Source: an uncultured Pseudothermotoga sp. (GTDB lineage: Bacteria; Thermotogota; Thermotogae; Thermotogales; DSM-5069). Taken from it: a DNA stretch of 64,000 bases. Made by a program: the position numbers and the translations under genes. The notes below the pieces were generated by a model. It had not been told where the DNA came from and ran no database searches. It saw only the letters and a list, made by a program, of their open reading frames with translations. Positions 28,212-58,856 of this stretch are shown in pieces (positions within the stretch are counted from its first letter, which is position 1; each line of letters starts with the position of its first letter). The DNA lies in NCBI GenBank assembly GCA_937995655.1, contig CALKJI010000002.1, positions 62,001 through 126,000 of the forward strand. Direction: 5' to 3'.

Positions 28212-29594
28212 ATGAAATTCGTAGATACAACTTTGAGAGATGGTCATCAATCACTCATAGCCACAAGAATGTCCACAAAGGACATGTTACCAGCTCTGGA
28301 AGCTATGGACAGAGTAGGTTTTTATTCGATGGAAATGTGGGGTGGAGCTACCTTCGATGTGGCTGTGAGATTTTTGAATGAGGACCCCTGGGAAAGACTG
28401 AGAAAGATCAGGGAAAAAATCAAAAACACAAAGCTCCAGATGCTTCTACGTGGTCAAAATCTTGTAGGTTACAGGCACTACGCAGACGATACCGTTAGAT
28501 TGTTCGTCAAAAAAATGGTCGAAAACGGCATCGATATAATAAGAATCTTTGATGCCTTGAATGACCAGAGAAATCTTATAGTTGCCATCGACGAAGCCAA
28601 GAAAATGAATGCACATGTTCAGGGTGCCATTTCCTATACGGTGAGTCCTGTACACACTTTGGAATACTATCTTGACTACGCAAAAAAGTTGGTTGCTCTC
28701 GGTGTTGACTCCATATGTATAAAGGATATGGCAGGACTGTTAACACCAAAAGAAACATACGACCTTGTCAGTTCTTTAAAAAAACAATTCTCTTTACCAG
28801 TAGACGTACATTCCCACTGTACTTGTGGCCTTGCAATTGCAAGTTATCAAGCTGCAATCGATGCCGGAGCAGATATTATGGATACTGCTTTATCCCCCTT
28901 TGCTCTTGGTACTTCCCAACCTCCTTTTGAACCATTTTACTATTCTTTGAGTAAAAAGGGGATAGTACCACCTCCAGACTGGGAAACACTGAATTTCCTG
29001 ATAGAATACTTCACAAAGGTGAGAGAAGAATATTCTTCTTTTGACGTAAAGATGACAACGATTGATCCTAAGATACTCTATGCACAGGTTCCAGGTGGTA
29101 TGTACTCAAATATGGTAAAACAACTTCAAGAACAGAAGATGTCTCACAAAATGAAGGAGGTACTTGAGGAAATTCCAAGGGTTCAAAAAGATCTTGGTTA
29201 TCCACCACTTGTAACACCTACAAGTCAAATAGTTGGTGTTCAAGCAGTTTTGAATGTCATGACGGGTGAAAGGTATGCTAAAGTGACAAAGGAAGTCAAA
29301 GAATACGTAAAGGGCTTTTATGGTCGACCTCCAGCACCAATTGACCCGGAGCTGATAAGAAAGATCCTTGGTGACGAAAAACCCATCGATGTGAGACCTG
29401 GGGAAATCATTCCACCGGAACTGGAAAAAGCAAGAAGAGAATTGGGCTTACTTGCTAAAACCGATGAAGATCTCTTGATATATGTCATACTTGGTGAAGT
29501 GGGAAAGAAATATTTGCAAAAACGTTATATCGATCAACTGAAGGTTGATTTTGATCTTGTTAAAGAATTTGAGGCGCCGGTCTATCCTGTATGA
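28212..29594 (+). CDS. oxaloacetate decarboxylase alpha / pyruvate carboxylase B-type carboxyltransferase lacking a biotin domain
   Basis: FVDTTLRDGHQSLIATRM; DSICIKDMAGLLTP; DVHSHCTCGLA; no EAMKM at C-terminus. Confidence 0.9.
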   Translation: MKFVDTTLRDGHQSLIATRMSTKDMLPALEAMDRVGFYSMEMWGGATFDVAVRFLNEDPWERLRKIREKIKNTKLQMLLRGQNLVGYRHYADDTVRLFVKKMVENGIDIIRIFDALNDQRNLIVAIDEAKKMNAHVQGAISYTVSPVHTLEYYLDYAKKLVALGVDSICIKDMAGLLTPKETYDLVSSLKKQFSLPVDVHSHCTCGLAIASYQAAIDAGADIMDTALSPFALGTSQPPFEPFYYSLSKKGIVPPPDWETLNFLIEYFTKVREEYSSFDVKMTTIDPKILYAQVPGGMYSNMVKQLQEQKMSHKMKEVLEEIPRVQKDLGYPPLVTPTSQIVGVQAVLNVMTGERYAKVTKEVKEYVKGFYGRPPAPIDPELIRKILGDEKPIDVRPGEIIPPELEKARRELGLLAKTDEDLLIYVILGEVGKKYLQKRYIDQLKVDFDLVKEFEAPVYPV

Positions 29595-30397
29595 TCATCG
29601 GTACGGGTGTCGATACTGTAAGAATTGACAGAATAAAGGAAGGTATCAGTGAAAGAATACTTGGCCCAAGGGAGCTCAAGGAATTTGAAAAAGTCAAAGA
29701 CAAAAAAACTTACCTTGCCAGCCACTTCGCAGCAAAAGAGGCTTTCTTCAAAGCTATAGGTACGGGTGTCAGAAACAGTTGTTTTAAAGATATAGAAGTT
29801 ATCCACGATAGATTGGGAAAACCCTTGTTCGTATTTCATAAAGACTACGAGTTTAATTGCGTTCACTTAAGTATCGCACATGATTATGTGGCTCTTGCAC
29901 AAGTTATTCTTGAAAGATGCTATGGAAAGATTTACCTGGGTCTTGGTTCCAACATTGGCAACAGACTTAAGAACATTCAAAGGGCTTGTGATTTACTCCA
30001 GATTTTGGGTATCAATGTTGTTAGGAAATCATCGATCTATGAGACGAAACCATATGGTGTGACAGATCAACCAGAGTTTTTCAACTGTGTCATAGAAATA
30101 GATACACAATTGACACCTGGCAACTTGCTCAAATTACTTTTGCATACAGAACAAATCATGGGAAGAGTCAGGGAAAGACGCTGGGGCCCAAGAATAATAG
30201 ATTTAGATATACTTTTATTTGGCAACACGGTCTATGAATTAAAAGAGTTGTCAATACCACACTACGATATGCTCAATAGACAATTCACCATTGTTCCACT
30301 TGTTGAAATAGGTGCGAATAATCATCCATTGGAAGGCAATCTGACAAAATTTCTGAAAGAAGGTGAAAAATGCAGATTGATCACGAGCAACTGGTAG
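29591..30397 (+). CDS. fusion protein: holo-ACP synthase (AcpS) + HPPK (FolK)
   Basis: N-term MIIGTGVDTVRIDRIKE...LASHFAAKEAFFKAIGTGV; C-term IYLGLGSNIGNRLKNIQ...FNCVIEIDT...RERRWGPRIIDLDILLFG. Confidence 0.9.
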   Translation: MIIGTGVDTVRIDRIKEGISERILGPRELKEFEKVKDKKTYLASHFAAKEAFFKAIGTGVRNSCFKDIEVIHDRLGKPLFVFHKDYEFNCVHLSIAHDYVALAQVILERCYGKIYLGLGSNIGNRLKNIQRACDLLQILGINVVRKSSIYETKPYGVTDQPEFFNCVIEIDTQLTPGNLLKLLLHTEQIMGRVRERRWGPRIIDLDILLFGNTVYELKELSIPHYDMLNRQFTIVPLVEIGANNHPLEGNLTKFLKEGEKCRLITSNW

Positions 30398-41499: not shown

Positions 41500-43899
41500 T
41501 CACTTTAGAATGAATGTCAATATCATTTCATCAACCTTGTCTATCTGTATCTGGAAAAGATCCTTTTCCACCTCCAAGACTGGTAAATCTGGCTCCACAT
41601 TCAATGAATAGATGGATGGACAAAATACATGAACAATGGAATCTGAAACTTTACTGAATCTTACTCTCGAATGATCCTGTTTCAGAAACTCCACTTGTGC
41701 CGGCTCCCAAGAGCAAGACCCAAAGCTCAGATTCTTATACTCAATACTGTATTCAATACCGTTAAAGATGTAGTCAACTGTCTTGCTATCTTCAAGAACA
41801 AACTGGAAAACTAAGCTGTTTTCAGCTTCTAAATATTTTTCGTTGGTCAGAATGGTACCAAAGAGTGGCTTTTTCAACTCAAAGATGATTTTGACTGGTT
41901 CTCTGGAAAGGTTTTTGAACAAATATGAACATTTATTATCTTGTCTTTGAAAGTCGATTCCTACTTTAGTCTCTCCTATTTTTACATCGTCGATGTGATA
42001 TTCCTTCCAATGCACCGGTACTTTCGGGCTAAACTTCAAAATGTTTTCTTGAGCGTCTATTTCCATGCCAAAGAGTCCTTCAGCAATCGACCACAAGATT
42101 GGTCCAACAGAAAACAATTGATGTGGGACAGCTGTCGTTACTGGAACAAAGATATCACCGGAAAAGAGCTCGGACAGATGTGTTGAACCTTCTTCTGTAA
42201 AAGCTTTGATGGCACTCTTAATTATCTGCCATCCAAAGTGATCGTAACCGGTTTTGTAACAACTTTGGGCTACGAATCCATTTATGAAATGCCAGACGCT
42301 TCCCAAGTTGTAGTTGATTGGATCATAGTGCTGGCACATCTCTATAGATCGAGAACCCCACCTTGTCATGGTAGTACTGTTGCACAATATTTTTACAAAG
42401 GCCTTTGATCTATCTTTATCGAGTACTGAAAGAGATATTCCAAAAGATGGCCATGGTGTCAAATAATCGAAAAGTTTTCCATCGGTATTTACTGACATAT
42501 AGTAAGACTTTTTTTCTTCGCTCCAAAAGATCTTTTCAATCGATTGCTTAACCCTTCTAACCCTTTCATCAAGTCTTTCGCGGATCGTGCCATCTCCTAT
42601 TTTGGCAAAAACCTGCTTTAACTTTTCGAGCGCTGCAAGGTAGATGGCATTAGTATACAAATCGTACTTGGGCCTTCGAAATTCACTTATTTCCAGCGCT
42701 CCAAGTCCTGCCTTGAGGTTTTCTATCAAACCTGTTTCATCACACATCGTGTCGTAAAAGTCTAGAGATTTCAATATTTTTTCTTTCATGAGCATAAAGA
42801 AATCTGTATCATTAGTTCGAATGATGTAATGTGCGCAAGCTAACAAAAACCACGCAGTTGTATCAGCATGGAGAAAGGCAAATCCTTTGTAATTACTGAA
42901 CCAGTCTATCAATCCGTGAGATTGAGAAATCTCATGAGGTATTCGGCCTTCAGAACTTTGATAGGAAGCGTAAAATTCAAGGCTCTTTTTCACCGTTTCC
43001 CTATCTCCATAATCGCACATGGCCAGAGAGTTTATAGAAGCATCTCCCGCAAAAAACCATGCAAACCCAGGCCTTGTAGACTTACCAGACGGTCCTATAC
43101 CTGCGACAAGAGCTTCCCCCAACTTTGGATTTTTGGTTAGGCCTTTCACCAGCGACAGTTTACCCCAAGTGAAGAACTCGTTCAGTTCTTGGTCTGGTGT
43201 CTTTAGTTTTGTGGTTTGCTCCAAGTAGGTACGATAGTAATCCCTCGCCACTTCTATTTCTTCTTGAACCTTTTCTTCAACTCCAAGAAGATCTTGACAA
43301 GCCTTCTTACCCATGACACCGCCGATTATGCTCACAACAAATTCTTTCTTTCCTGCCTTGACTGGGACCTTAAAACTGTAAAAAGTCTCGGCGAAGGCGT
43401 GGTCGCCCTCTTTGGAGAATTTCTCAGCTTCAGGTGTGCGAATCAAAGATGAAAATGAATCAGTTGGTTCTGATATTACAAAACCTTTTATTTGATCTGA
43501 CCAATAGCAATATTGACCACCTATCGCGCCAGGCCACATTAAATTGAGCTCGGGTTTAAAGTGAAAAATTAGTTCCAAGTCAACTGAGGAAACAATTTTA
43601 TATAAAAGAAAACACCCCGGAAAATCAATTGGGGAAAAGATAGTCTCATCCATACTAAACAGAGGATGTCCATATCGAACAGTTGTTGATGCGGGTTCAG
43701 TGACAACACCGCTGACGAGTGTTTCTAAATCAACCATTTCGAGTGTTTTTGACAGCCAAGCACTCGTTTTGTAGTTACTCAATAACTTCAGGGGCCAGCT
43801 CCAAAATTCCAAACCCCGGCCAAACCATCCCATGGCGCAAGATCTTTTTCCAACACTCTCTATATAAAGTCTTGGTCTAACCCTTACCGTTCTCTCCAC
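41500..43899 (-). CDS. six-hairpin glycosidase
   Basis: TRPGFAWFFAGDASINSLAMCDYGDRETVKKSLEFYASYQSSEGRIPHEIS; paralogous in style to 36146-39178. Confidence 0.75.
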   Translation of the reverse strand: MERTVRVRPRLYIESVGKRSCAMGWFGRGLEFWSWPLKLLSNYKTSAWLSKTLEMVDLETLVSGVVTEPASTTVRYGHPLFSMDETIFSPIDFPGCFLLYKIVSSVDLELIFHFKPELNLMWPGAIGGQYCYWSDQIKGFVISEPTDSFSSLIRTPEAEKFSKEGDHAFAETFYSFKVPVKAGKKEFVVSIIGGVMGKKACQDLLGVEEKVQEEIEVARDYYRTYLEQTTKLKTPDQELNEFFTWGKLSLVKGLTKNPKLGEALVAGIGPSGKSTRPGFAWFFAGDASINSLAMCDYGDRETVKKSLEFYASYQSSEGRIPHEISQSHGLIDWFSNYKGFAFLHADTTAWFLLACAHYIIRTNDTDFFMLMKEKILKSLDFYDTMCDETGLIENLKAGLGALEISEFRRPKYDLYTNAIYLAALEKLKQVFAKIGDGTIRERLDERVRRVKQSIEKIFWSEEKKSYYMSVNTDGKLFDYLTPWPSFGISLSVLDKDRSKAFVKILCNSTTMTRWGSRSIEMCQHYDPINYNLGSVWHFINGFVAQSCYKTGYDHFGWQIIKSAIKAFTEEGSTHLSELFSGDIFVPVTTAVPHQLFSVGPILWSIAEGLFGMEIDAQENILKFSPKVPVHWKEYHIDDVKIGETKVGIDFQRQDNKCSYLFKNLSREPVKIIFELKKPLFGTILTNEKYLEAENSLVFQFVLEDSKTVDYIFNGIEYSIEYKNLSFGSCSWEPAQVEFLKQDHSRVRFSKVSDSIVHVFCPSIYSLNVEPDLPVLEVEKDLFQIQIDKVDEMILTFILK

Positions 43900-44608
43900 A
43901 CTCTCTCACTCCTTGATTTTCGACATAGTTTTTTACATCTTCGATATCCAAGTCTATGATTCTCTCATAAACTTCCAACGCACTTTTCAGATCCCTCCTC
44001 ACTATGTTTTCGCACAGTTCTTTGTGATAGGGTAAACCGCGATCCCCAAAATCTTTCAAACCAAGAGGTGAACGCCAAAGTATACCAAGCAGTGAAAAGA
44101 GATTCTCAAAGACCATTTGGAGAATCTTATTGTTGGCTATCTCAAAGATCTTCCTATGAAACTTCTCGTCTACTTCGCCCAGTTTTTCGTGGCTCTCAAT
44201 GGATTTTTCTAACTCTAAAAAAGCTACTTTTAATTCATTGAGCTGTTCTTCGCTAGCATTTTGTATCGCAAGCTTTATAGCTCCTTTTTCTAAGCACCTT
44301 CGAACCTCGAGTAACTCCAAAATGTCCTTTGGCTCATCGGAACATACTTTGAGTGGTATGTTCAGTGAGATGACTAAACCGTTTTTTCTCACCACATAAG
44401 TGCCACTGCCATGAATAGTCTTTGTGATTCCTTCCAGTTCTAAGATCCTTAGGGCCTCCCTCACAATGGTTCGACTTACCTGGAACATATCTGCCAGTTG
44501 GTGTTCGCCCGGCAATTTATCTAAATCTTGTTCCAGTATGAACTTTTTGATGGCTTCAGCAACAAGAATGGACTTTCTTTCCTTGGTCGTGATTTCTATA
44601 CCTATCAC
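43877..44608 (-). CDS. GntR-family (FadR-type) transcriptional regulator
   Basis: LPGEHQLADMFQVSRTIVREALRILELEGI; FCD-like helical C-terminus. Confidence 0.92.
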   Translation of the reverse strand: MIGIEITTKERKSILVAEAIKKFILEQDLDKLPGEHQLADMFQVSRTIVREALRILELEGITKTIHGSGTYVVRKNGLVISLNIPLKVCSDEPKDILELLEVRRCLEKGAIKLAIQNASEEQLNELKVAFLELEKSIESHEKLGEVDEKFHRKIFEIANNKILQMVFENLFSLLGILWRSPLGLKDFGDRGLPYHKELCENIVRRDLKSALEVYERIIDLDIEDVKNYVENQGVRECGENGKG

Positions 44609-44614
44609 CCCTTT

Positions 44615-45451
44615 TTATTCTTTCATGCCTGTTAATGCTATACCCTCAACGAAATACTTTTGGGCTATTAAGAACATTATAATCACCGGTAACATCACAA
44701 CAACTGCCGCTGCCATTTGGTACGGCCAGTTAACCTCAAACATTGTTTTGAAATAGGCAATGCCAACTTCTACCGTACGCATCTTTTCTGTTCGGGTCAC
44801 CAAAAGTGGCCACATGAAAGCCTTCCATGCACCCATGAAGGCAAAGATCCCCAGAGTCGCAAGTGCCGGTTTAGAGAGAGGCAAAACGATCCTCCAAAAT
44901 ATCATGAATTCGCTGGCACCATCTATTCTAGCAGCATCTTCTAAATTCTTGGGAAGTGTGAGAAAGAATTGTCGCAACAAAAACGTACCCCAAACGCTGA
45001 AGAATGACGGTACCGTCAAAGCCCAGTAGGTATCGATCCAATTCAGTGATTTTACGATGAGGAACGATGGAATCAAGGTTACGATACCTGGTACCATCAT
45101 CGTAGAAAGAAACATCCAGAAGACAAAGTCGCGTCCCGGAAAGTTCATCCGTGCAAAGGCATAGGCTACCATGGAACAGAAGAACAACTGTACAGGTACA
45201 ATTACGACAACCATGATTGTAGAATTCAAGAAATATCTTCCAAAAGGCACCAGTGTCATCGCATTCTTATAGTTCGACCACTTCGGTTCATCTGGTATGA
45301 ACTTAGGCGGAAACTGGAAAACTTCCATTTTATCCATCAAAGATGTTGAAACCATCCACAGGAAAGGTATCAACATCGTTAAAGCCACAAACAAAAGGAC
45401 AGCATAAGTTAAAATATTGCCCACCAATTTTGTCACTTTGTTTTTCTTCAT
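44615..45451 (-). CDS. carbohydrate ABC transporter permease, MalG type
   Basis: EDAARIDGASEFMIFWRIVLPLSKPALATLGIFAFMGAWKAFMWPL (EAA loop). Confidence 0.95.
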   Translation of the reverse strand: MKKNKVTKLVGNILTYAVLLFVALTMLIPFLWMVSTSLMDKMEVFQFPPKFIPDEPKWSNYKNAMTLVPFGRYFLNSTIMVVVIVPVQLFFCSMVAYAFARMNFPGRDFVFWMFLSTMMVPGIVTLIPSFLIVKSLNWIDTYWALTVPSFFSVWGTFLLRQFFLTLPKNLEDAARIDGASEFMIFWRIVLPLSKPALATLGIFAFMGAWKAFMWPLLVTRTEKMRTVEVGIAYFKTMFEVNWPYQMAAAVVVMLPVIIMFLIAQKYFVEGIALTGMKE

Positions 45452-45458
45452 GATTCAC

Positions 45459-47588
45459 TCACTCCTCATAGAATGTCTTTCCCATCAATTTGAACTGAAT
45501 AAATGAGGCTGTGAAAATCAGCAGAAAGAGAAACCAGGACTGTGCACTGGCATATCCCATACTGAAACTCTTCCAAGCAGTATTGTATATGTGATAGACA
45601 AAAACATTCGTGGTACCAGCAGGACCTCCTTGAGTCATAACATAAACTGGTGTAAATACTTGAAATGAGCCTATGATAGATGTTATCAGCAGAAAAACAT
45701 TGGTAGGTTGAAGCATGGGCAAAGTTATGTGCAGGAACTTGTTCCAGCTGTTCGCTCCATCGAGATCTGCTACTTCGTACAGATAACTTGGTATGCCCTT
45801 CAAACCTGCCAAGTATATAACCATTTGATACCCTAGATTCATCCATATAGTCATAATCATTATCGACATCATAGCGGTCTTTGGATCTGACAACCACCTT
45901 TGAGGTGGTACTTTGAAGAATCCAAGCAAATAGTTGAGCAGACCAAATTCGGGGTTGTAAATCCACTGCCAAACTATCGATATGGCTACAAAGGAAGATA
46001 TGGATGGCAAAAAGTAAAGTAACCTAAGAACATTTATGCCCTTTATCTTTTTATTCATCAAGAGTGCAACTCCCAAAGATAGAGCCATGCCTATAGGCAC
46101 ATTCAGTGTATAGACGGCCGTGTTTTTCAAAGAGCGCATGATATCTTTGTCTTTGAAAACATTGACAAAGTTTCCAAAGCCAACGAATGGTTTCAATGGA
46201 TCGACCATTGACCATTCATGAAAGCTAAGATAGAGTGAGAAGACTATGGGAATCAAGAGCCACATCATGAACATAAAGACTCCTGGTAGTAGAAAGGCGT
46301 AACCCTTCATCGTATTTCTGAGTATCAATCTGTTTCGAATATTCCTTACTATAAAATCTAAAGCAAAGAGTGCAAAAGCAAGGCTACTCAGGACAACAAA
46401 AAAGATGAGAACCAAATTCTTACCCTGTGTATTGACTCTCAAAGGTAGATAGCCTATCTTTGTCTCTCCAACCTGAAAAACAAAGATCTTCAGACCGCGT
46501 ATAGTGTGGAAGGTCCTGCTAGGAACAAGCTTTGCAAGAGTGCCAATTTCTTTCTTCAAATTGGCTGTGATCACCGTTGAGGAGGATATGAGCTTTCCTG
46601 TTTGATCGAATGCAACCAGGTTAAAGACTCTTGTTAGATCGGACAAATTCTTAGAACTCTTAGCATATTGATCCACGTATTTATGTAAGGATGTACTGAA
46701 ATCATGAACAGTTTCTTTACAAAATTTGTCATAACTGTTTTTCAAAAAGAATGTGATAAATACAAAAGAAATCAGGACCAATATAGAATATAACCTTGAC
46801 GAGAGCAAAGGAACTTTTGATGACAAGACGAGTAACAAACAAACGACTAGTAAAGTTGCAACAATAACTATCATCAAATACAGGGAATTCATTACCTGAG
46901 CTTTAAAATCCGCCACATTTAACCCGACAACGATGATACCTTCGGTATGCCAACCTATATTATCAAGAAAAGGTGTTGCAACGACTAGGTACTGTTTTTT
47001 GTCGAATTTGGCTGCAGTAGAAACTGGGTTCCAAGATGCCTGCGCGGCTTTCAGTAAGTTATCAGAGATTGGTAAATCTATGTTATTTCCGACGTTGGCC
47101 ATTTCTTTCGTAACGTTGGAAAGGAAAGTAAAGGCATACTTGATTTGGTCAGTGACATCTTCTTCGTAAACGAGGAAAGTATCGAATACGAAGTCCTTTG
47201 CTTTAATAACACGAACGAATAATCTAGAATTCTGAGCTATTATTATCGGGACAGGATCTCCTGTCAACAAACTGAACATCAGATCTTCCGTCATATCTAT
47301 AGTTTTACCATCTTGAGTCAGCGGCTTGCCGGACTCATTGACCAAGTAAATATGACCACTCTTTTTATTCACACCAAAATCAACAGTTTCTGCTTGGAAA
47401 AAACTTTCAGTATCTTTTGACACTCTATCTCTGATTTCCTGCAGTGTAACACGCACAATTTTTGATATCTCCTCAAGGTTCTCAGTTTTAACAACTTGAA
47501 CGTTTTTGAGAAAGAGAAATCCAAGGACAATTGAACATATGATAATCAAAGCACATAAATAGATAAGCAAAAAAGTTCTCACATTCAT
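45459..47588 (-). CDS. MalF-type ABC permease with ~425-aa N-terminal duplicated TM/extracytoplasmic sensor-like extension
   Basis: EAA loop YEVADLDGANSWNKFLHITLPML; two TM-ectodomain-TM units before the permease; ATG 47588 after AGGAGGAG. Confidence 0.88.
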   Translation of the reverse strand: MNVRTFLLIYLCALIIICSIVLGFLFLKNVQVVKTENLEEISKIVRVTLQEIRDRVSKDTESFFQAETVDFGVNKKSGHIYLVNESGKPLTQDGKTIDMTEDLMFSLLTGDPVPIIIAQNSRLFVRVIKAKDFVFDTFLVYEEDVTDQIKYAFTFLSNVTKEMANVGNNIDLPISDNLLKAAQASWNPVSTAAKFDKKQYLVVATPFLDNIGWHTEGIIVVGLNVADFKAQVMNSLYLMIVIVATLLVVCLLLVLSSKVPLLSSRLYSILVLISFVFITFFLKNSYDKFCKETVHDFSTSLHKYVDQYAKSSKNLSDLTRVFNLVAFDQTGKLISSSTVITANLKKEIGTLAKLVPSRTFHTIRGLKIFVFQVGETKIGYLPLRVNTQGKNLVLIFFVVLSSLAFALFALDFIVRNIRNRLILRNTMKGYAFLLPGVFMFMMWLLIPIVFSLYLSFHEWSMVDPLKPFVGFGNFVNVFKDKDIMRSLKNTAVYTLNVPIGMALSLGVALLMNKKIKGINVLRLLYFLPSISSFVAISIVWQWIYNPEFGLLNYLLGFFKVPPQRWLSDPKTAMMSIMIMTIWMNLGYQMVIYLAGLKGIPSYLYEVADLDGANSWNKFLHITLPMLQPTNVFLLITSIIGSFQVFTPVYVMTQGGPAGTTNVFVYHIYNTAWKSFSMGYASAQSWFLFLLIFTASFIQFKLMGKTFYEE

Positions 47589-47621
47589 CTCATTTCTCCT
47601 CCTAAAAATGAGCTCCTTCAT

Positions 47622-47653
47622 AAAAGGTGGTGGCAAAAGCCACCACCCTTTTA
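47622..47653 (-). promoter_or_regulatory. intercistronic hairpin/attenuator between SBP and permease genes
   Basis: minus strand GGTGGTGGC-TTTT-GCCACCACC-TTTTATG. Confidence 0.75.
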
Positions 47654-47660
47654 GCTTTTA

Positions 47661-48932
47661 TCAGCGGCCGAAAACCTTGGTTTCAATCTCTTTAACAGCC
47701 CAGTCTAAAGCCTCTTTGACTGGAGTATTCAAAGCTATGATCTTGTCCATGGCTTCTGCAAAAATATCCTCAGCCTTGTACCAATCAAAAACTCTTGATC
47801 CAATTGGTATTCTAGCTGTTGGTATTATTTCGACGAACTTCTTTTCAACACCCCATTTGTCTTGTGCAACGAGCAACTCGTTTGTGGGAATGTGGCCAGA
47901 TAGCTCGATTCTTGCTTCGAGCACTTCGCGTTTTTGTCCCTCTGCTCCTGCCAGCCATGCAACGAACTGCAGAGCCTCTCTTGGGTTTTTCGTCCCAGCT
48001 ATGACACTCCATGCTGTGGCGTATATCACGGTTTGGCTGGACTTCGCATATGGTCCTCTTGGCAACCTTACAACACCAATCTCAAGTGTACCTTCCTCTA
48101 TGTACTTTCTCATACCAAAGAGCGACCAATGACCACTTATGTAGAACCCTATCCTATTTGTGTAGAGCATGTTTCCAAGACCACCTAAGGCGGAAACGGT
48201 ATCCGGTTCTGGCGCTACTTTGTACTTCTTCATCAAATCAACGAAGAACTGAACTGCCTCGATTGTCTGTGGGCTATTGAGGTACCCTGCAACGGTCTTG
48301 TAGTCGGGCGAAATGATCTCTCCACCATAAGACCATATCTTTGGACACATCTGGTAGAAAAATTTCCCAACATAGGCACCGTATTGATCAATCTTGCCAT
48401 CGCCATCGAGATCTTTTGTCATTGCCTGTGCCATTTTTAGAAAATCGTTCCATGTCCAGTCATCGTTCGGTTCTGACAACCCGGCTTGCTTTAAAAGCTT
48501 CTTGTTGTAGTACACAACCATGGGGGTGAAACCTTTTGGAAGACCAAAGAGTTTTCCATCGGGTGATGTGAATACTTCGAGCACGTTTGGGTAGTACTCT
48601 TCAATGTTAACTCCTAAAACTCTCAAGTATGGCTTGATATTCAATGGTACTCCTCGTTCGGTAAATGTTGGCATGTAAGGTGCATCAAGAAGGAAAACAT
48701 CTGGGGGGTTACCAGCGGCAATAGACGCCAGTAAAGCCTGCGTGTAGTTATCTGGGTAGATTTCCGGCACGAGCTTTATGTTTGGAAACTTTGCTTGGAA
48801 AGCCGCGATCTTTGCATTTGCATGTTTGATATCCTCTTCGCCGCCCCCAAAACCAGTCCACCTGAGCTCAACGACTTGTGCCATCATTAGGACTGCAACT
48901 AACAGTAGAGCAACCATGAAGAACCTGCGCAT
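47661..48932 (-). CDS. carbohydrate ABC transporter substrate-binding protein
   Basis: MRRFFMVALLLVAVLMMAQ signal peptide; FPNIKLVPEIYPDNYTQALLASIAAGNPPDVFLLD. Confidence 0.94.
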   Translation of the reverse strand: MRRFFMVALLLVAVLMMAQVVELRWTGFGGGEEDIKHANAKIAAFQAKFPNIKLVPEIYPDNYTQALLASIAAGNPPDVFLLDAPYMPTFTERGVPLNIKPYLRVLGVNIEEYYPNVLEVFTSPDGKLFGLPKGFTPMVVYYNKKLLKQAGLSEPNDDWTWNDFLKMAQAMTKDLDGDGKIDQYGAYVGKFFYQMCPKIWSYGGEIISPDYKTVAGYLNSPQTIEAVQFFVDLMKKYKVAPEPDTVSALGGLGNMLYTNRIGFYISGHWSLFGMRKYIEEGTLEIGVVRLPRGPYAKSSQTVIYATAWSVIAGTKNPREALQFVAWLAGAEGQKREVLEARIELSGHIPTNELLVAQDKWGVEKKFVEIIPTARIPIGSRVFDWYKAEDIFAEAMDKIIALNTPVKEALDWAVKEIETKVFGR

Positions 48933-48955
48933 AAAAACACCTCCCGGCTTTTTGA

Positions 48956-48988
48956 TGCATACTTGTCTACTCAATAGACAAATATGCA
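48956..48988. promoter_or_regulatory. candidate operator, long inverted repeat
   Basis: TGCATA-C-TTGTCTA-CTCAA-TAGACAA-A-TATGCA upstream of SBP gene. Confidence 0.75.
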
Positions 48989-49062
48989 ATCCCTACCTGT
49001 ATTTTATCTAACAAAAATAATTGACTAATGTAACATTAAAGTTAACTTTCCAAAGTTTTGCA

Positions 49063-50097
49063 TCATCTGGGCCATCTTTTTTCGATGCTTAGAAATGCAG
49101 GGAAGGGTGCATGAGGTTCTATTTGATACCAGTAAGCAACTGAAGCAATATCATCTGTCAACGGTTGAAAGGTGCCATCGGGCCACCAGCCAAGGGTTTG
49201 TATTGTAACCTTTAGGCTCTCTTTGAAGAATATTGGATCTGGTATATGCCACCTGTACATTACGTGTTTTGGAATCTGTCCTTCCTGTTTGACACAGAAC
49301 GGATATCCCAGAAACGCTGTGGAGTAGGTTTTTCCAAAGCCCCAAGCTCCACCAAAGTAGTCTTCAGTGCCTGTATAACAAATGCTCGGATTTTCTTCAC
49401 CGTCTATAAAGAACTTAACCTCACCCTCCCCCCACCAACCGTTTGAAAGCTGTTCCCAAGCTATGACAGTCCCAACATATTTTCCCGTACCCTTGACGTC
49501 AGCCAAGATTATATGTTCTGGATTCTCCCTGCTCGTCATGCTTCTACGCCATTGTGAATGAAAATAGGCTATGTTACCTTCGAATTTCTGCCTGATAAAG
49601 GTTATCTGATAGAAGAAATAGGGTATCTCATTCTCGCTTTGATTTTCAACTGTCACTTTTGCCCTTTTCTTGAAAGGCATGGGCCAATATGAGTTGAAAC
49701 CACCCGAGGGATTCACAGCTATCGGCAGAGAATTGACCTCAAATCTCAATCCAAAACAATTCACGAAAAAATCCCCCAGTGGTACTTCAACAGATGGTGT
49801 GGGTTCATCATCCCAGTAGATCCTCAGAACACAGTTTCTATAAGCCTTCTGATCTACCGTCATCCACATGAAAGTTATGACACCAGGGCCTTCAACATCA
49901 GCCAGTAAAGTCTCCTGCTTTGCTTTCAAATTGATACAGGGCCTAACCTTCCAACCCTTTCCAAGTCTTCTTGCAGGATTCTCAGGACTTGGAATCTCAA
50001 GAGCACCTTTGTTCCTCTCTCCTGTTGGGTTTTCAGCAGATATGGAGTACGTCTCTAAATCAGTGATCTTATAGAACTCTTCAAGCACAAATATCAC
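49063..50097 (-). CDS. DUF2961/GH172-family protein
   Basis: GPGVITFMWMTVD...LRIYWDDEPTPSVEVPLGDFFVNCFG...NPSGGFNSYWPMPFKKRAKVTVEN; GTEDYFGGAW. Confidence 0.88.
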   Translation of the reverse strand: MIFVLEEFYKITDLETYSISAENPTGERNKGALEIPSPENPARRLGKGWKVRPCINLKAKQETLLADVEGPGVITFMWMTVDQKAYRNCVLRIYWDDEPTPSVEVPLGDFFVNCFGLRFEVNSLPIAVNPSGGFNSYWPMPFKKRAKVTVENQSENEIPYFFYQITFIRQKFEGNIAYFHSQWRRSMTSRENPEHIILADVKGTGKYVGTVIAWEQLSNGWWGEGEVKFFIDGEENPSICYTGTEDYFGGAWGFGKTYSTAFLGYPFCVKQEGQIPKHVMYRWHIPDPIFFKESLKVTIQTLGWWPDGTFQPLTDDIASVAYWYQIEPHAPFPAFLSIEKRWPR

Positions 50098-50936
50098 CTC
50101 TCATAACCAGAGGAAAGTTTTATGCCTTGGAGCAGCCACTTCTGTGCGAAGAAGTAAATCAATATAAGAGGTATAGATGAAAGAGTAGCCGCCGCAAGTT
50201 GAACTGGGTAGTCAATAGTATATTGGCTACTGAACATGGCTATACCAACTTCTATCATTCTCATTTGTCTACTCCTAGTGACAACGAGAGGCCAAAGAAA
50301 AGACTTCCATGTCCCCAAGAATGTGAAGGTCGCAACCGTTGCAAGCACAGGCTTGCATAATGGAAGAACTATTTTCCAGAATATGGTGAACTCTGATGCG
50401 CCATCTATTCTTGCAGCGTCTTCCAAGCTGTTTGGGAGGGTAAGCATATACTGCCTCATCAAAAACATACCCCATATATTACCAAGCGATGGAATTATCA
50501 AAGCCATATATGTGTCTATCCAGCCAAGACTGCGAAGAATTATGAATCCCGGTATGAGGGTGACTACCCCTGGCAACATCATGAAGGCTAAGAATATTTT
50601 GAAGAAAAGATCTCTTCCGGGAAAATAAAGTCTAGAGAGCGCGTAGCCTCCCATGGACACTATCACAAGTTGTCCCAAGACGACCGTAACAGCAACGAAA
50701 ACCGTGTTGAAAATGTACCTACCCCATGGCTGGGACTTCCACATCTGCAGGTAATTTTCAACTCTAGGGGTAGAAGGAAAAAGTCTTGGTGGAAAACTGT
50801 ATATTTCGAACTGAGCCATGAATGAGGAAGAAACCATAACTATGTATGGTACAAGCGTTGAAACTGCCAAAACTGCCAAGACGAATATGACAAAGAGCTT
50901 CAACACAATTTTTAAAATCTTTTTTCTCTCTTTCAC
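50094..50936 (-). CDS. carbohydrate ABC transporter permease, MalG type
   Basis: EDAARIDGASEFTIFWKIVLPLCKPVLATVATFTFLGTWKSFLWPL. Confidence 0.95.
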   Translation of the reverse strand: MKERKKILKIVLKLFVIFVLAVLAVSTLVPYIVMVSSSFMAQFEIYSFPPRLFPSTPRVENYLQMWKSQPWGRYIFNTVFVAVTVVLGQLVIVSMGGYALSRLYFPGRDLFFKIFLAFMMLPGVVTLIPGFIILRSLGWIDTYMALIIPSLGNIWGMFLMRQYMLTLPNSLEDAARIDGASEFTIFWKIVLPLCKPVLATVATFTFLGTWKSFLWPLVVTRSRQMRMIEVGIAMFSSQYTIDYPVQLAAATLSSIPLILIYFFAQKWLLQGIKLSSGYER

Positions 50937-50961: not shown

Positions 50962-53184
50962 TCAGAAGTACTGTTTCCAGCTTTCTTTTCCAGAAAGTTT
51001 GAACTGTATGTAAGTCAAAACAACTAAAACCAAGAATAACATCCACGATTGAGCTGCTGCATAGCCCATCCTAAGCTCTACCCAAGCGGACTCCCATATG
51101 TGATAAAAAACAACATCCGTACTTCTCAGAGGACCACCTTGAGTCAAAACATAGATGGGCGTAAATACCTGGAAGGAGCCTATTACACTGGTAACGAGCA
51201 CAAAAACAGTAGTTGGTTTTAAAAGTGGAATAGTTACGAAACGAAATTTGTGGAAAGAATTAGCCCCATCTATGCTGGCAGCCTCATAGAAAGTTTGAGG
51301 TATGCTTTGAAGACCCGCTAAGAAAATTATCATCTGACTACCCAGAGACTGCCAGATACTCATCAACATTATGGCGATCAAAGCTGTGTTTGGTGAAGTC
51401 AGCCACGGAATTTTTGGAATACCCAAAAATCCCAGTACATAGTTGAGTATGCCAAAATCCCTATTCAGTATCCATCTCCAGACTATCGTTGTAGAGACAC
51501 CTGCAGTCACAGCTGGTAAATAGTAAATTGTGCGCAAGAGTGCCATCCTCTTAGTCTGGCGGTTGACCGCAATCGCCACGAGCAGCGAGAAGAACATACC
51601 GATAGGAACCTGGAGCGAAAATAAGACTGTATTCTTCATGGCATTCCAGAAAAGTTTGTCTTGAAATAGTTCTTTAAAGTTATCAAATCCCACGAAGGGC
51701 TTGGCCGGATCTATTACGTTCCATCTGTGGAAGGCTAAGTAAAATGAAAAAACCACGGGGCCAGCCGCCCACCACAAAAGATGAATTAAAGCTGGCGCTA
51801 AGAAGATGTATCCTATAAGTGTGGCTCTAAGAAATCGTGGTCGGTCTGCGTTCTTTATTGCAAAACCAAGTATCACAACAAAGAGAATAGATACTATGGA
51901 TAAAATCAACCCCATGAACCTAATACCTGTCAAATCATTTACAAGTGGCGTTTTTTCTTTCAAAAGATAAAGACGCTGGTTATCTTTTTGTAAAACCAAA
52001 TAAGTGTGACGAACCCTGTTGACATCAAGCTCTCCCATTTCAACTGTATTGAAACTTGCTATCGGTGACCATTTTGCCAACGTATCGAGTATATTCTTCC
52101 TCAGCGTAGCAAAAATCACATTTTTGTTTTCCATCAAAAGAACTTGAACGCCCAGTATTCTTTTTATTTCTTCAAGTTCCTCCATTTTTAACCAAGTCTG
52201 TCCAAATCTTTCCAGAGTCTTGGCAGTCATTTTCATGTGTTCTTCATACTCAGCTCCCAAAACTTTGGTCATTTGAAAAAGGAAAACTGAAATAATTGAA
52301 AGAAACAACGGGACAGAAAACAGGAAAAGAACAAAAATAGCTTTTAATCTTTTGTTCAGAGCCCTCAAAATTCCAAAGATCAGAATCAAAGAAGAGATTA
52401 TAAACAAGATGGCGTTGATAAACTGAAGTTCTAAAAGTTTACTCTGCGCTTGCTTAATATCTATAGAGTTAACAAGAAATCCTTTCATTCCCCATTGTTC
52501 AAAATCCAAAAAAGGCATAACACTTATCATTCTTCCATCTTTTGTAACCTCTGTTTCGACTCTCTGGCTGGCTTTAACCCTTTTGAGAAGATCATCGCTC
52601 ACGGGGAAGCCTTCCCCAAAAACCCTGCCATCTTTTGATACAAAAAACACCTTTCTGCCAAAGAACTGACCAATTCTAAAGAAGTAATCTGCAGGAAGTG
52701 TTTTACCTACAAGAACAATGAGTTCATCACTCTGATCAGATTCAACTATCATTGCGGTTCTAATCTGTAAAGCTTCGTCCAAAGAATATATGTCGGACAT
52801 AAAGGTGTTGTTTTCCCCATAGAACACGGATTGAACTAAAGGATCAAGGTATAAATCTTCGTCTGGTAGAGTACCAAATTCAGCTATAATGTTTCCATCT
52901 ATATCCATCCAGACTAAAAACGAACATTTTTCACATATGATACGACTTATATCTTCAAGCTTAGAGATAGAAATATCCTCATTCTTCAAAAGATCAAAGA
53001 TCGTTTTTCCGAAATCATAAAGTTCACTTTTTACATAGAAAAGGCTCGCCCTTGCAATCTCACTTTCTACACCTTTTTTGTATTGAAAGAATCTCGATCT
53101 TAAGTAAGACAGTGAAGAAAAAAAGATTATTCCCACAAAAGAAATGGTGAACAAGATCAGGTAAAGCTTTGTCCTTGTGCTCAA
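50962..53184 (-). CDS. MalF-type ABC permease with ~455-aa N-terminal duplicated sensor-like extension (paralogue of 45459-47588)
   Basis: EAA loop YEAASIDGANSFHKFRFVTIPLL; TM-ectodomain-TM twice at N-terminus; TTG 53184 preferred after GGAGGG (ORF track start 53199). Confidence 0.86.
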   Translation of the reverse strand: MSTRTKLYLILFTISFVGIIFFSSLSYLRSRFFQYKKGVESEIARASLFYVKSELYDFGKTIFDLLKNEDISISKLEDISRIICEKCSFLVWMDIDGNIIAEFGTLPDEDLYLDPLVQSVFYGENNTFMSDIYSLDEALQIRTAMIVESDQSDELIVLVGKTLPADYFFRIGQFFGRKVFFVSKDGRVFGEGFPVSDDLLKRVKASQRVETEVTKDGRMISVMPFLDFEQWGMKGFLVNSIDIKQAQSKLLELQFINAILFIISSLILIFGILRALNKRLKAIFVLFLFSVPLFLSIISVFLFQMTKVLGAEYEEHMKMTAKTLERFGQTWLKMEELEEIKRILGVQVLLMENKNVIFATLRKNILDTLAKWSPIASFNTVEMGELDVNRVRHTYLVLQKDNQRLYLLKEKTPLVNDLTGIRFMGLILSIVSILFVVILGFAIKNADRPRFLRATLIGYIFLAPALIHLLWWAAGPVVFSFYLAFHRWNVIDPAKPFVGFDNFKELFQDKLFWNAMKNTVLFSLQVPIGMFFSLLVAIAVNRQTKRMALLRTIYYLPAVTAGVSTTIVWRWILNRDFGILNYVLGFLGIPKIPWLTSPNTALIAIMLMSIWQSLGSQMIIFLAGLQSIPQTFYEAASIDGANSFHKFRFVTIPLLKPTTVFVLVTSVIGSFQVFTPIYVLTQGGPLRSTDVVFYHIWESAWVELRMGYAAAQSWMLFLVLVVLTYIQFKLSGKESWKQYF

Positions 53185-53208: not shown

Positions 53209-53230
53209 AAGGAGGGGAATTCCCCTCCTT
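53209..53230. promoter_or_regulatory. 22-bp perfect palindrome between SBP and permease genes
   Basis: AAGGAGGGGAATTCCCCTCCTT. Confidence 0.75.
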
Positions 53231-54519
53231 CACTGCCACTCGCCTTTCTGAATAGCTTTGTCTATTGTGTCAGCTGCCCAGTCCAAGCTCTCTTTCACAG
53301 ACATTCCTTTGATTAAGATTCGATCAGCAGCTTCAGCCCATGTTCTCTCAAACAAAGGTCTGTAGTACTTGGTCTGTGACCCTACAGGAACTCTTGCAAA
53401 ACTGAGCATCTCTATAAAAGCAGCATCCACTTTGTTCAAAGCTCCTTGTTGCTCCGCAATCTTCTTGTTTGCCGATATGGCAAGACCACCTTCCAAACAC
53501 CTTTGCCTTTGGGCATACTCACTTGACAACCATGCTGCAAGTTCTGTAGCTAATCTTTTATCTGCAACGTTGGCTGGTACAGCCCATCCAGATGCATATG
53601 TGACAGTGACATTCTTCAATCCCGGAGCATGCGGGATCGGTGCGACTCCTACGTCGATTGGTGCTCCTTGTTCAATTTGTCTCTTTGCAGTCAACCAGAA
53701 CCATCTTCCCGTGATCACCATCCCTATTCGACCTGTAAAGAAGAGGGAGGCTGCCCCACCTAATGCAGCTGCTTCATCTGGTGTGGGAGCATATCCTTTC
53801 TTGAAAAGATCTACGAAGAAACTATATGTTTTGACGTTAGTTTCACTGTTAAGGTATCCTGTGGTTTTAGTAAAATCAGGCGAGAACACCTCGCCACCAC
53901 CAGCCCAAAGAAGGGGTACAGCAACACCAACCCAGCTTGGAAAAGAAAAAGCCCAAACATCTGTCTTTCCATCGCCATCAGTATCCTTAGTTAGACTGGC
54001 AGAAACTTTCTCAAACTCTTGCCAAGTCCATCCACTCTGTGAAGGATAAGGTACTCCAAATTTGTCGAAAAGTTTCTTGTTGTAGAACACACCCACCGGG
54101 CTTGTATCCTTTGGAAGGGCATATATAGCTCTTCCAGATCTGAATATATTCACCAGGACTTCAAAATATTCGTTCAAGCTTGTGCCAGCAACACCTTCCT
54201 CAGCAAGCCTTGATAGATAAGGAGCAAGGTTCAACAAGAGTTTTTCCTCAGCATATCTTGGAACCATTTCGGCATCCAAAAGAAAGACATCGGGGGGAGT
54301 CCCAGCCGCTATATCGGTCAAGATCTTTTGATAGTAATTCTGAGGTATTGGCTCATAAATTACTTCTACATCGGGATTTCTTCTCATGAATTCTGCCAAG
54401 ATCTTTTCGTCGAGTTCTGCTTCCAGTGCGCCCGCCCAGCTACTGACTCTGAGCTTCGTTTTACCAAAACTCAAGCTTACAACCAAGAGTACAAGAAGGA
54501 CTATCAAAAACTTTTTCAT
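53230..54519 (-). CDS. carbohydrate ABC transporter substrate-binding protein
   Basis: MKKFLIVLLVLLVVSLSFG signal; NPDVEVIYEPIPQNYYQKILTDIAAGTPPDVFLLDA. Confidence 0.94.
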   Translation of the reverse strand: MKKFLIVLLVLLVVSLSFGKTKLRVSSWAGALEAELDEKILAEFMRRNPDVEVIYEPIPQNYYQKILTDIAAGTPPDVFLLDAEMVPRYAEEKLLLNLAPYLSRLAEEGVAGTSLNEYFEVLVNIFRSGRAIYALPKDTSPVGVFYNKKLFDKFGVPYPSQSGWTWQEFEKVSASLTKDTDGDGKTDVWAFSFPSWVGVAVPLLWAGGGEVFSPDFTKTTGYLNSETNVKTYSFFVDLFKKGYAPTPDEAAALGGAASLFFTGRIGMVITGRWFWLTAKRQIEQGAPIDVGVAPIPHAPGLKNVTVTYASGWAVPANVADKRLATELAAWLSSEYAQRQRCLEGGLAISANKKIAEQQGALNKVDAAFIEMLSFARVPVGSQTKYYRPLFERTWAEAADRILIKGMSVKESLDWAADTIDKAIQKGEWQ

Positions 54520-54863: not shown

Positions 54864-56117
54864 TCATCCTAAAACTATTTTGACTATTTTGTCTAATTCT
54901 TCCTCGTCTAGATAGTTCTTCATTACTATGCTTTGCTTCTTTACCCTCATGAGTATTTCTTCTACTTGCGCATCGCTTGCTTTCAAACCTTTCTTTTGTA
55001 AATACAATTTTATGAAGGCCCTTCCGCTTTTTTTACCACCAACATATTTGAGTTTTCTATTCAAAGATTCTGGATTGTATGGGAACATGGAATACTCTAT
55101 GCCTGAGCCTTTGCTCATTTTTTCATTTGCATCGATAACTATTCCAGATTCGCTATGGAATATCCTTTCCCCAACGATTGGTTTATTGGGTGCAACACGA
55201 ACCTTGGATATCTCTTCTATGTGCTTGGAGACCGTGTAGAGTTGTGAACAGTCGATTTGAGTATCTATCCCAAGTATCATTTCAAGTCCCATCACAACTT
55301 CTTCGGTAGAAGCATTACCAGTCCTCTCACCCAAACAGTTAAAAGATGTTTCAACTGCTTCGGCGCCAGATGCTACTGCCATGAGCGCCGTTGCCGTTGC
55401 CAAACCATAGTCGTTGTGTACATGTAAAGCAAGAGGAACACTTGGGAACCATTCTTTCATCTTCCTAACTAAGAAATTAACTGTGAAAGGATGTGCCTGA
55501 CCAAAGGTGTCAGATATACCTATCTGATCGACCTCGACGTTCTTCAAAAGCTCTGTGTAAACGGTCTTTATCCATTCCAGATTGTTGATTCTAAAAGTGT
55601 CCCAACCGCAAAATTCTACAAACAAACCAAGTTCCTTTGCAAGTTTTGCACCCTTGATTATTCTGTTGATGAATTCTTTCGAATCAAGCCCCAACACGTG
55701 TTTAACAAAGTATGGATTGATTCCCGTCTCATAAAACAATCCATCTGCACCACATTCCGCAGCCAATTTGACATCTTCTTCAATTATCCTTGCTAAGGCT
55801 ATCTTTTTTGCTCTCAAGTTCATCTTTGATAGCCTCTTGAAAGCCCTTTGATCCTCTTCAGAAACAGCGGGTGTCCCGATCTCTATCATTTGAATACCTA
55901 TTTTGTCAAGTTCCTGAGCTATGAATACTTTTTCATCCTCTGTGAAGACAACGCCCGCCATTTGTTCACCGTCTCTCAAAGTTACATCGTGAATTAAGAC
56001 CTTCTTTGGTAAATTCATCTTAGAGCGAACTTCTGGATGAAAATTCAAAGGCGAAACCCAACTGTTTTTTAGAATGAACGGCTTACAACCTTCAAGTTCT
56101 TGAAAGTCCATGTACAT
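54864..56117 (-). CDS. HMGL-like / 2-isopropylmalate-homocitrate synthase family enzyme
   Basis: VLIHDVTLRDGEQMAGVVFTEDEK; LALHVHNDYGLATATALMAVASGAEAVETSFNCLGERTGNAS. Confidence 0.88.
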   Translation of the reverse strand: MYMDFQELEGCKPFILKNSWVSPLNFHPEVRSKMNLPKKVLIHDVTLRDGEQMAGVVFTEDEKVFIAQELDKIGIQMIEIGTPAVSEEDQRAFKRLSKMNLRAKKIALARIIEEDVKLAAECGADGLFYETGINPYFVKHVLGLDSKEFINRIIKGAKLAKELGLFVEFCGWDTFRINNLEWIKTVYTELLKNVEVDQIGISDTFGQAHPFTVNFLVRKMKEWFPSVPLALHVHNDYGLATATALMAVASGAEAVETSFNCLGERTGNASTEEVVMGLEMILGIDTQIDCSQLYTVSKHIEEISKVRVAPNKPIVGERIFHSESGIVIDANEKMSKGSGIEYSMFPYNPESLNRKLKYVGGKKSGRAFIKLYLQKKGLKASDAQVEEILMRVKKQSIVMKNYLDEEELDKIVKIVLG

Positions 56118-58057
56118 TACTCCTTTCTGTAACTTGTAATCAACTCATTACCTTTCTGAGTTATAGAAACTGTTCTTCTCCAGATACCTCCTTCCCTCAA
56201 ATAACCTCTTCTGACGAGTGAGTTAATTATGGTAGCCAATGCCATCGAGTTTAGACCCGTTTCTTTGGATAATTCATCTGCTAAGATCATAGATTTACCA
56301 CGGACATGTTCAAGAATCTTAATGCCTGTTTCATCAACACCTTCAAGGATTTCCTTTTCTTTGATCTTTGTTGGTAATGTTTTACCAAAGTCCGTTACCC
56401 TAAACATATAGAAACCCGACCCACCGTTGGAAAATCTTTCTATTGCACCCGCCTTTTCAAGTGACAGGACCAATTCACTGCTTTTTGCTGAATCCATATC
56501 TAACAGATCAGTTATCTCAGACATCGTGTTATAACCCTTTTTTATGATATCCAAGACCTTAATTTCTTCATCTGTGAGCTTTGATCTTTTTTGGATTTCA
56601 AAGTCGTACTTGGATCTTCCAAAGAAATTCGCAATTATGGCGGCTGCAACAGAAACAACGACACCAGGGATCACCATGTGTCCAAATTTGCTGGTCAACG
56701 GGTAAATCTTTGTTAAATCCAACAGAGTCCAAACAGACATGAATACAAGACCGACCAGTCCACCCACAAACGCACCAGTGGTGGAGAATTTTTTCGTGTA
56801 AAGGCCAAGAATCACAACTACTGCTGTTGGTGCAAGCCATGCCGTCGCAAAGGCGAATAGATAGACTGGGCCACCAGGGAAAAAGCACAAAAGGAGAGCT
56901 GCCAAGCCAAATAAAGCGTTCACAATCATTGAAGGTTTCACAAGTTGTTCTGATTTTGCATTCGGTTTAAAAAATCTTTGATAGATGTCCCTTATTATGA
57001 CTGAACTTCCTGCCATATAATAGGTTGTTGCAGTTGAGACAGAAGCAGCCAGAGTGGTTAAGAGAAAATAGGCGGCAAGAACAGGCGGAGTATCTCTCAG
57101 GAATATACCAAATGCGGCCGCAGGTGCAGCAGTTCCTCGGGGTGCAAACATTTCTGGATGAGCTGCACCGACGTATGCACCCAGCAAGGGGTACATAAAT
57201 CCGTTGGCAAGGAAAAGTATCACAGCAGCCCACAAATAAGAAAGCTTTGCAACCCTCTCACTCCTGACCGAACTGACCCTTATCCAGTAACTGTTCGATC
57301 CCCAAACAAGTGCCATACCATAGAGGAAGAATGCAACCAATACACTAGGGTAGAACATGGAAAACCATGGGAAGGTTTTACCAGCTATACCAGTCGTCCA
57401 AAAGTTTCCACTGGGCCAATTATTTGAAAGGAAACTCATACCACCGTATTTGACAAGTAGAAAGATCAGAAGCGTTGGTATCGCAAAGGTACAAAGTACA
57501 CCCTGTATGAAATCTGTTAACGTCACTGCCCACATTCCTCCAAGAACGGTGAAGAACAAGAAGATCAGAAAAGTTATAAAAATTGTAGAAGGTATCGACC
57601 ATTTTGTAAAACCTGTGATGATTGTAGCCATCGAAAGAATATTGTTTGCAGTTATACCAAGCATCGCTACGATCGTGACAAGTGTTATTACAAATCTAAC
57701 CTTTCTGTCATATCTTATCTCCAACCATTCAGGTAAGGTATGTGCTCCTGTCCTTCGTGCAACTGGAGCTATGAGAAAGGCATAGGATATGATACCTGTG
57801 AGTGAGTATGCAACACCCAACATGAAGATGCTCTTTGTCAAACCACCCATCAAAGTGAAAGCTGGTGCAAGTGTCAAAGTGGTTCCTGCATAACCAATCG
57901 CAGCAACCCCCAGTATGTTAACCAAAAGATTGATTTGTCTTCCCGCAACAAGATAATCTGTACTACGTCCTATCCATTTTCTTGTTATCCACCCAACCAA
58001 GACCATGACGAAACCAAAAATAGCAAAGAAAACTGTGAAAATAGCTACAGTACTCAT
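56117..58057 (-). CDS. sodium:solute symporter (SSS) with C-terminal tandem winged-helix domains
   Basis: SSS core GIAVGYAGTTLTLAPAFTLMGG-type N-terminus (AAIGYAGTTLTLAPAF) and last ~153 aa LTDEEIKVLDIIKKGYNTMSEITDLLDMDS...ILADELSKETGLNSMALATIINSLVRRGYLREGG. Confidence 0.86.
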   Translation of the reverse strand: MSTVAIFTVFFAIFGFVMVLVGWITRKWIGRSTDYLVAGRQINLLVNILGVAAIGYAGTTLTLAPAFTLMGGLTKSIFMLGVAYSLTGIISYAFLIAPVARRTGAHTLPEWLEIRYDRKVRFVITLVTIVAMLGITANNILSMATIITGFTKWSIPSTIFITFLIFLFFTVLGGMWAVTLTDFIQGVLCTFAIPTLLIFLLVKYGGMSFLSNNWPSGNFWTTGIAGKTFPWFSMFYPSVLVAFFLYGMALVWGSNSYWIRVSSVRSERVAKLSYLWAAVILFLANGFMYPLLGAYVGAAHPEMFAPRGTAAPAAAFGIFLRDTPPVLAAYFLLTTLAASVSTATTYYMAGSSVIIRDIYQRFFKPNAKSEQLVKPSMIVNALFGLAALLLCFFPGGPVYLFAFATAWLAPTAVVVILGLYTKKFSTTGAFVGGLVGLVFMSVWTLLDLTKIYPLTSKFGHMVIPGVVVSVAAAIIANFFGRSKYDFEIQKRSKLTDEEIKVLDIIKKGYNTMSEITDLLDMDSAKSSELVLSLEKAGAIERFSNGGSGFYMFRVTDFGKTLPTKIKEKEILEGVDETGIKILEHVRGKSMILADELSKETGLNSMALATIINSLVRRGYLREGGIWRRTVSITQKGNELITSYRKE

Positions 58058-58070
58058 TCTCCACCCTCCT

Positions 58071-58856
58071 TCACTCTTCAACTATTGCCACAGCGCGCAC
58101 CCAACCGGCGCTGGCTTTGAATATCTTTATTGGGAAAACCGATACCTTGAAGCCGAAAGGTTTGGGTATTTTGTCAAGATTGGCAAGTTTTTCAATATGA
58201 CAGTACTCTTTTTCAATTGCGGCAAAGTGCGCGGGCCATATATAAGAACCATTCTTGGACTCCTGGTAGTCCTTAGACATGTTCGAAAATGGTCTGTCCC
58301 AGGTGTATGCATCTATACCTGTTATCTTGACTCCTTGTTCAATCAGCCACAATGTTGCTTCGCGGCTCATTCCGGGTTGTAAAAAGTATTCCTTTGTTCC
58401 CATCCTCTTGTCTGCACCCGTCATTATCAGAACTATGTCAAATGGTTTAATTTTGTAATTTATCCTTTCAAGTTCATTCTTAAGATCTTCAACTGTTATG
58501 AATTCACCAAATTTCTTGTGTCTCATGTCGAGAACAACACCATCAGAGTAACACCACTCTAACGGGACCTCATCGATCGTTTTAGCAATCTTCCCTTCAA
58601 CGATTGGGTGAAAATGCCATGGAGCATCCAGATGCGTCCCTGTATGAGTCATTGCATCAACAAATTCGTAGGACCATCCTAAACCATGCGAATATAGAAG
58701 ATCTTTCGGATCAACACCAAAGCGTTCCCTCATTTCTTGGGAACCTGCTCTGTGGTCAAGGTAGGTTATCTTGGCTGGCCAAGGCTCGGAAGGAGAGTTT
58801 GGAACAATGGTCTCGCTTAAGTCGATCAATTTGACACCCACGGGAATCACCCCCAT
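58071..58856 (-). CDS. cyclase family protein (kynurenine-formamidase-like)
   Basis: DAMTHTGTHLDAPWHFHP; ITGIDAYTWDRPF; start may be the GTG after GGGGGTG. Confidence 0.87.
   Translation of the reverse strand: MGVIPVGVKLIDLSETIVPNSPSEPWPAKITYLDHRAGSQEMRERFGVDPKDLLYSHGLGWSYEFVDAMTHTGTHLDAPWHFHPIVEGKIAKTIDEVPLEWCYSDGVVLDMRHKKFGEFITVEDLKNELERINYKIKPFDIVLIMTGADKRMGTKEYFLQPGMSREATLWLIEQGVKITGIDAYTWDRPFSNMSKDYQESKNGSYIWPAHFAAIEKEYCHIEKLANLDKIPKPFGFKVSVFPIKIFKASAGWVRAVAIVEE

Follow-up and report, generated by a model that had tools for sequence, protein, structure and literature searches.

Introduction

MalF/UgpA-type permeases of CUT1 ABC importers (PF00528; E. coli MalF) have a core with an EAA loop, and adjoin a MalG-type partner and a binding protein. 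In MalF, the P2 loop is located inside the permease core. OpuA and GlnPQ are binding protein-permease fusions, in which an extracytoplasmic domain is covalently joined to an importer subunit. The arabino-oligosaccharide importer of Geobacillus uses the binding protein AbnE and is accompanied by a separate sensor system. On the sensory side, dCache_1 proteins (PF02743; Tlp3, PctA, KinD, WalK) share a first transmembrane segment (TM1), a long stalk helix, two PAS-like modules and TM2. The survey that defined the Cache superfamily lists signal-transduction outputs only, apart from members of the SMP_2 family; it never mentions transporters or permeases, and the proteins behind its models had signalling outputs (PMC4822843).

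Here we describe a MalF-type permease, P1, that carries a dCache-type extension at its N-terminus. It lies in a window of 64,000 nucleotides from a Thermotogota bacterium, the whole stretch of DNA that was analysed. Both parts of the protein are known; a description of a Cache-permease fusion, or of such an architecture, was not found in the open-licence literature searched. A Cache domain on an importer subunit would widen the range of outputs known for the largest superfamily of extracellular sensors. In addition, the extended permease would offer a tractable system in which to ask if built-in sensors let importers be regulated from outside.

Architecture of the extended permease

P1 is encoded on the minus strand (45459-47588) by a frame that runs uninterrupted over all 709 residues; AGGAGG precedes its ATG (at 47588) by 9 nt. 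The C-terminal part (residues 425-709; 45459-46316) is a MalF/UgpA-type permease core. It matches BPD_transp_1 above the curated cut-off (53.2 vs 26.4 bits, residues 502-697), the UgpA/GlcT/MalF models match residues 420-703, and the EAA loop occupies residues 603-628 (45705-45782). The core is therefore complete, as proposed in an earlier note made from the sequence alone.

Compared with other MalF/UgpA-type permeases, P1 has four extra TMs and two ectodomains ahead of the core. TM1 (residues about 7-28; 47505-47570, boundaries approximate and from predicted secondary structure) runs on into a stalk helix. It is followed by a dCache-like ectodomain 1 (residues 29-224; 46917-47504), in which D209-x3-W213-x3-G217 is invariant or near-invariant. 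Secondary structure prediction then places TM2, a short cytoplasmic turn and TM3 (residues 225-284; 46737-46916), before ectodomain 2, a single PAS-like unit (residues 285-387; 46428-46736). TM4 (residues 388-415; 46344-46427, also predicted) leads to a basic cytoplasmic linker. For P1 itself, the predicted order of TM1 and long helix, mixed beta ectodomain, TM2, TM3, smaller ectodomain, TM4 and core is of low confidence. The extension stops upstream of the first core TM and is not inserted within the core, unlike the MalF P2 loop. Hence, the ectodomains are positioned outside the permease core, in the different arrangement that the earlier note had put forward.

The same window encodes a paralog, hereafter paralog P2 (50962-53199, minus strand, 745 residues), with the architecture of P1: a stalk helix and double Cache ectodomain (residues 35-248; 52456-53097) and a PAS-like ectodomain 2 (residues 311-417; 51949-52269). 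The two extensions are homologous (hhalign E=3e-9 over 359 columns) and, by profile comparison, three extension clades are homologous to one another. The TM1-ectodomain-TM2-TM3-ectodomain-TM4 plan recognized at first reading is thus predicted in P1 and present in a high-confidence model of paralog P2. In addition, an extension model gave strong matches in 15 of 103 Thermotogota genomes, always within a permease frame. Because it recurs in this way, the plan is neither chance nor an assembly artefact. Two genes wrongly read as one would also mimic a fusion. This explanation is refuted by the single uninterrupted frame of P1, of paralog P2 and of all relatives that do not end at a contig edge, and we give it practically no credit.

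P1 contains no kinase, HAMP or other cytoplasmic output domain, and the permease core alone follows the extension. This agrees with the initial proposal that no separate kinase is involved. With no such output domain in P1, any signal would have to travel via the permease itself.

Fold of the extension

Single-sequence searches of the extension against Pfam and NCBIfam, and a sequence-profile search of the PDB, returned nothing useful. The Pfam dCache_1 model (PF02743) does not recognize the extension. Since the family is invisible to Pfam, it is probably annotated merely as "sugar permease". The AlphaFold model of P1 was poor (pLDDT 44, ten-sequence alignment) and was discarded as a fold-search query. 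In the model of paralog P2, residues 10-450 reach about 80-90 pLDDT, whereas the permease core stays below 50. The modelled order is stalk helix, two PAS-like modules, TM2, TM3, a further PAS-like unit and TM4. Ectodomain 1 is thus modelled as double and dCache-like: a long stalk helix bears two PAS-like modules, and a TM lies on either side.

Foldseek comparison of the paralog P2 model with the PDB gave 77 matches at E<=1e-3, and the best 50 of these were nearly all dCache ligand-binding domains (WalK, McpB, Tlp3, KinD, PctA). For single-domain targets, TM-scores by target were about 0.4-0.56 and rmsd values mostly 5-10 A, so the modelled agreement is at the level of the fold and not close. 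Profile-profile alignment also points to the dCache family. A family profile of TM1-ectodomain 1-TM2 aligned end to end and colinearly with that of 28 Thermotogota dCache_1 proteins (272 columns, E=1.6e-7, score 58.5), whereas 30 column-shuffled versions scored at most 32.6. Overall, the confidently folded model and the profile alignment bear out the suggestion that the ectodomain is Cache-type, and ectodomain 1 is predicted to have a Cache-type (dCache-like) fold. We infer the same fold for P1 from paralog P2, as the homology of the two extensions allows the prediction to be transferred. P1 nevertheless differs from dCache_1 sensors in escaping the Pfam model and in having a permease as output instead of a signalling domain (MCP, kinase, cyclase).

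Ectodomain 2 is a single PAS-like unit, ordered helix-b-b-a-b-b-b-b in the paralog P2 model. It shows a weak profile relation to the proximal half of dCache (E=2e-4), in the paralog P2 clade only. A tandem duplication of ectodomain 1 was considered and rejected, as profile comparison revealed no sequence relation between the ectodomains. The module had been called duplicated; the description is apt for the repeated TM-ectodomain-TM plan and fails for the sequence, since the ectodomains are not copies.

Gene neighbourhood and likely substrate

Both P1 and paralog P2 are flanked by their own binding-protein gene and MalG-type gene, all on the minus strand. For P1, these are the solute-binding protein at 47661-48989 and a MalG-type partner without extension at 44615-45451; for paralog P2, they are found at 53230-54519 and 50094-50936, respectively. 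Between the binding-protein gene and P1, a 13-bp stem-loop (47617-47651, minus strand) with a T-rich 3' side (z=-4.1) may determine how strongly the two are expressed relative to each other. An ATPase gene was not noticed among the open reading frames of the 28-64 kb part of the window. CUT1 importers commonly share an ATPase encoded elsewhere, and such a gene is not strictly required in the operon.

The P1 binding protein is closest, among solved structures, to 6rjy, an arabino-oligosaccharide-binding protein (AbnE-like). A GH172 (DUF2961) gene (49063-50097, minus strand) has as closest solved relative 8ic8, an exo-alpha-D-arabinofuranosidase, and the locus further holds two GH127-type genes as well as GH38-like and MGH1-like hydrolases. 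From sequence relationships, the GH172, the GH127 genes and the AbnE-like binding protein point to arabinofuranosides. For GH172 members, the reported substrates are alpha-D-arabinofuranosides or difructose anhydride (PMC10115798, PMC8605356). Hence, the imported substrate is probably a furanoside oligosaccharide, the exact nature of which is deduced from these relatives. The locus resembles that of the Geobacillus AbnE importer in its binding protein and its arabinofuranoside context. It differs in that the sensor is a separate protein in Geobacillus and is fused to the permease in P1.

The neighbourhood also bears on whether the module might signal laterally to a separate membrane kinase or chemoreceptor, with the permease as a mere anchor. 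dCache domains are otherwise part of kinases and chemoreceptors (PMC4822843), and several dCache receptors are encoded in this genome. However, neither the window nor the compared loci showed a kinase or chemoreceptor gene near the permease, and the regulator present is a GntR/FCD protein (43877-44608, minus strand). We consider lateral signalling very improbable.

Distribution and relatives

A contig scan using the P1 extension by itself returned no relatives, whereas an alignment-based scan did find them. Extended MalF genes preceded by a binding-protein gene and followed by MalG, mostly with GH172 as well, are also found in Kosmotogaceae and in further Thermotogota families. In a search with the paralog P2 core, all matches of at least 52% identity, contig-end cut-offs excluded, lie in frames of at least 609 residues. 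The next matches (at most 45% identity) are mostly plain permeases in frames of about 290-340 residues. An orthologous core without the extension was not found in this search. Of three weak matches to the extension model (L166-L168), one was at a LysR regulator, one at a dCache kinase and one at an ABC-2 protein; the kinase match was accordingly given no weight.

In the core tree, the extended Thermotogota permeases form one group (SH-aLRT 82). They belong to a wider set of 47 rows (SH-aLRT 98) that also takes in long permeases from Gemmatimonadota, plain ones from a third phylum and a single WS1 sequence. The Gemmatimonadota MalF homologs (L090-L108, L140-L143) have four extra N-terminal TMs at the same location; in one subgroup of these long homologs, ectodomain 2 is almost lost. 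Extensions of the two phyla agree in position, TM count and a D-x3-W motif, but their profile comparison was not significant. A common origin was therefore set aside, despite this agreement and the well-supported core set. A WS1 fragment (L041), at first taken for a carrier of the extension, was rejected, its upstream stretch resembling the end of a binding protein.

In genomes of the phylum of a WS1 bacterium, MalF-type permeases (L131-L138, e.g. L132:2015-4324 and L136:1470-3863; about 770-810 residues in all) carry a fused SBP_bac_1 binding protein at the N-terminus, joined through a TM. As in these fusions and in OpuA and GlnPQ, P1 joins an extracytoplasmic domain covalently to an importer subunit. 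P1 differs in that a Cache-type domain is fused, and the binding protein is retained as a separate protein.

Conservation and possible function

By computation, we show the fusion, its topology and its Cache-type fold; it is also conserved within the phylum and linked to genes for binding proteins, MalG and furanosidases. A Cache-like module on an importer subunit suggests that a sensor can be built into an importer, the function of the module being putative. We propose that P1 belongs, as the MalF-type subunit, to a CUT1 ABC importer that takes up arabinofuranoside-type oligosaccharides, with a TM1-dCache-TM2 unit and a TM3-PAS-like-TM4 unit added at its N-terminus. The module would sit outside the membrane, beside the permease mouth, and serve as an input or contact domain. 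There, it would modulate the transport cycle by binding either a small ligand outside the cytoplasm or the binding protein in its loaded state. We assign a probability of about 0.45 to this reading, in which an extracytoplasmic module for input or contact acts on the importer; both its ligand and its coupling are putative.

Within the paralog P2 clade, Y117, Q123, Y127, D136 and R147 are invariant and all belong to the distal PAS module; R147 is likewise an Arg in the P1 clade. dCache domains bind ligands in this distal module (PMC6321045), so that these invariant residues argue for an input module. On the other hand, the extension residues conserved in all clades are mostly structural (G102, G109, D232, W236, G240 and G389, paralog P2 numbering), which counts against it.

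Comparison with the nearest conserved operon (L144) showed 91% identity for the core, 87-89% for the binding proteins, 86-89% for MalG, 82% for GH172 and 55-56% for the extensions. Within the extension, the ectodomains are better kept (51-63% between near orthologs) and TM2-TM3 is the least conserved portion (38-47%). The extension has a dN of 0.29-0.30, against 0.045 for the core and 0.045-0.08 across core, binding protein and MalG, and is the fastest-evolving part measured in the operon. Its dN/dS is about 0.18, a rough value with dS near saturation. On these estimates, the extension appears to be under purifying selection, retained with loose sequence demands, as its dN is several-fold above those of the core, the binding protein and MalG. 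This loose requirement also weighs against an input module.

A stronger form of the proposal is a sensor-permease, a single polypeptide in which the importer is the direct output of the Cache domain and an extracytoplasmic ligand would gate sugar uptake with no need of a kinase or of transcription. We hold it to be doubtful. Divergence of the extension is much faster than that of the binding protein encoded with it. Moreover, TM2-TM3 would be the natural signal path, and its poor conservation counts against a finely tuned one.

The main rival is that the ectodomains merely keep the binding protein in place above the permease, or orient it there, in the manner of MalF P2, the Cache fold being reused as a protein-protein module. 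The ectodomains are indeed extracytoplasmic and beside the permease, and complete loci encode their own binding protein next door. In addition, related permeases of another phylum carry a binding protein fused at the same N-terminal site, so the position suits contact with the permease mouth. Contact of the MalF P2 loop with MalE is reported, going by titles cited in PMC3328499. A specific docking surface should, however, be better kept than the ectodomains are when set beside the binding proteins of the same near orthologs, and docking as the sole role seems somewhat unlikely.

Loose constraint, mostly structural conservation and weakly conserved TM2-TM3 would also fit a non-sensing role, in which the extra TMs and PAS-like units stabilize the heterodimer or fix it in the cell envelope. 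Against this, the genome's other permeases manage without an extension, and the double Cache fold is retained across families, which makes a role limited to assembly or stability improbable. We therefore retain the input or contact module as the preferred reading.

Other unusual arrangements were observed. In the same genome, a MalG-type permease of 825 residues (L172:984-3461) has an additional stretch of about 550 residues, apparently coiled coil, that separates its first TM from the core. A 415-residue permease (L173:1323-2570) has about 115 extra, mostly hydrophobic residues after its first core TM. In the window, a sodium:solute symporter (SSF; 56117-58081, minus strand) has a C-terminal tail of two winged-helix-like DNA-binding modules, and a phosphopantetheinyl transferase (ACPS) is fused to HPPK (29591-30397, plus strand).
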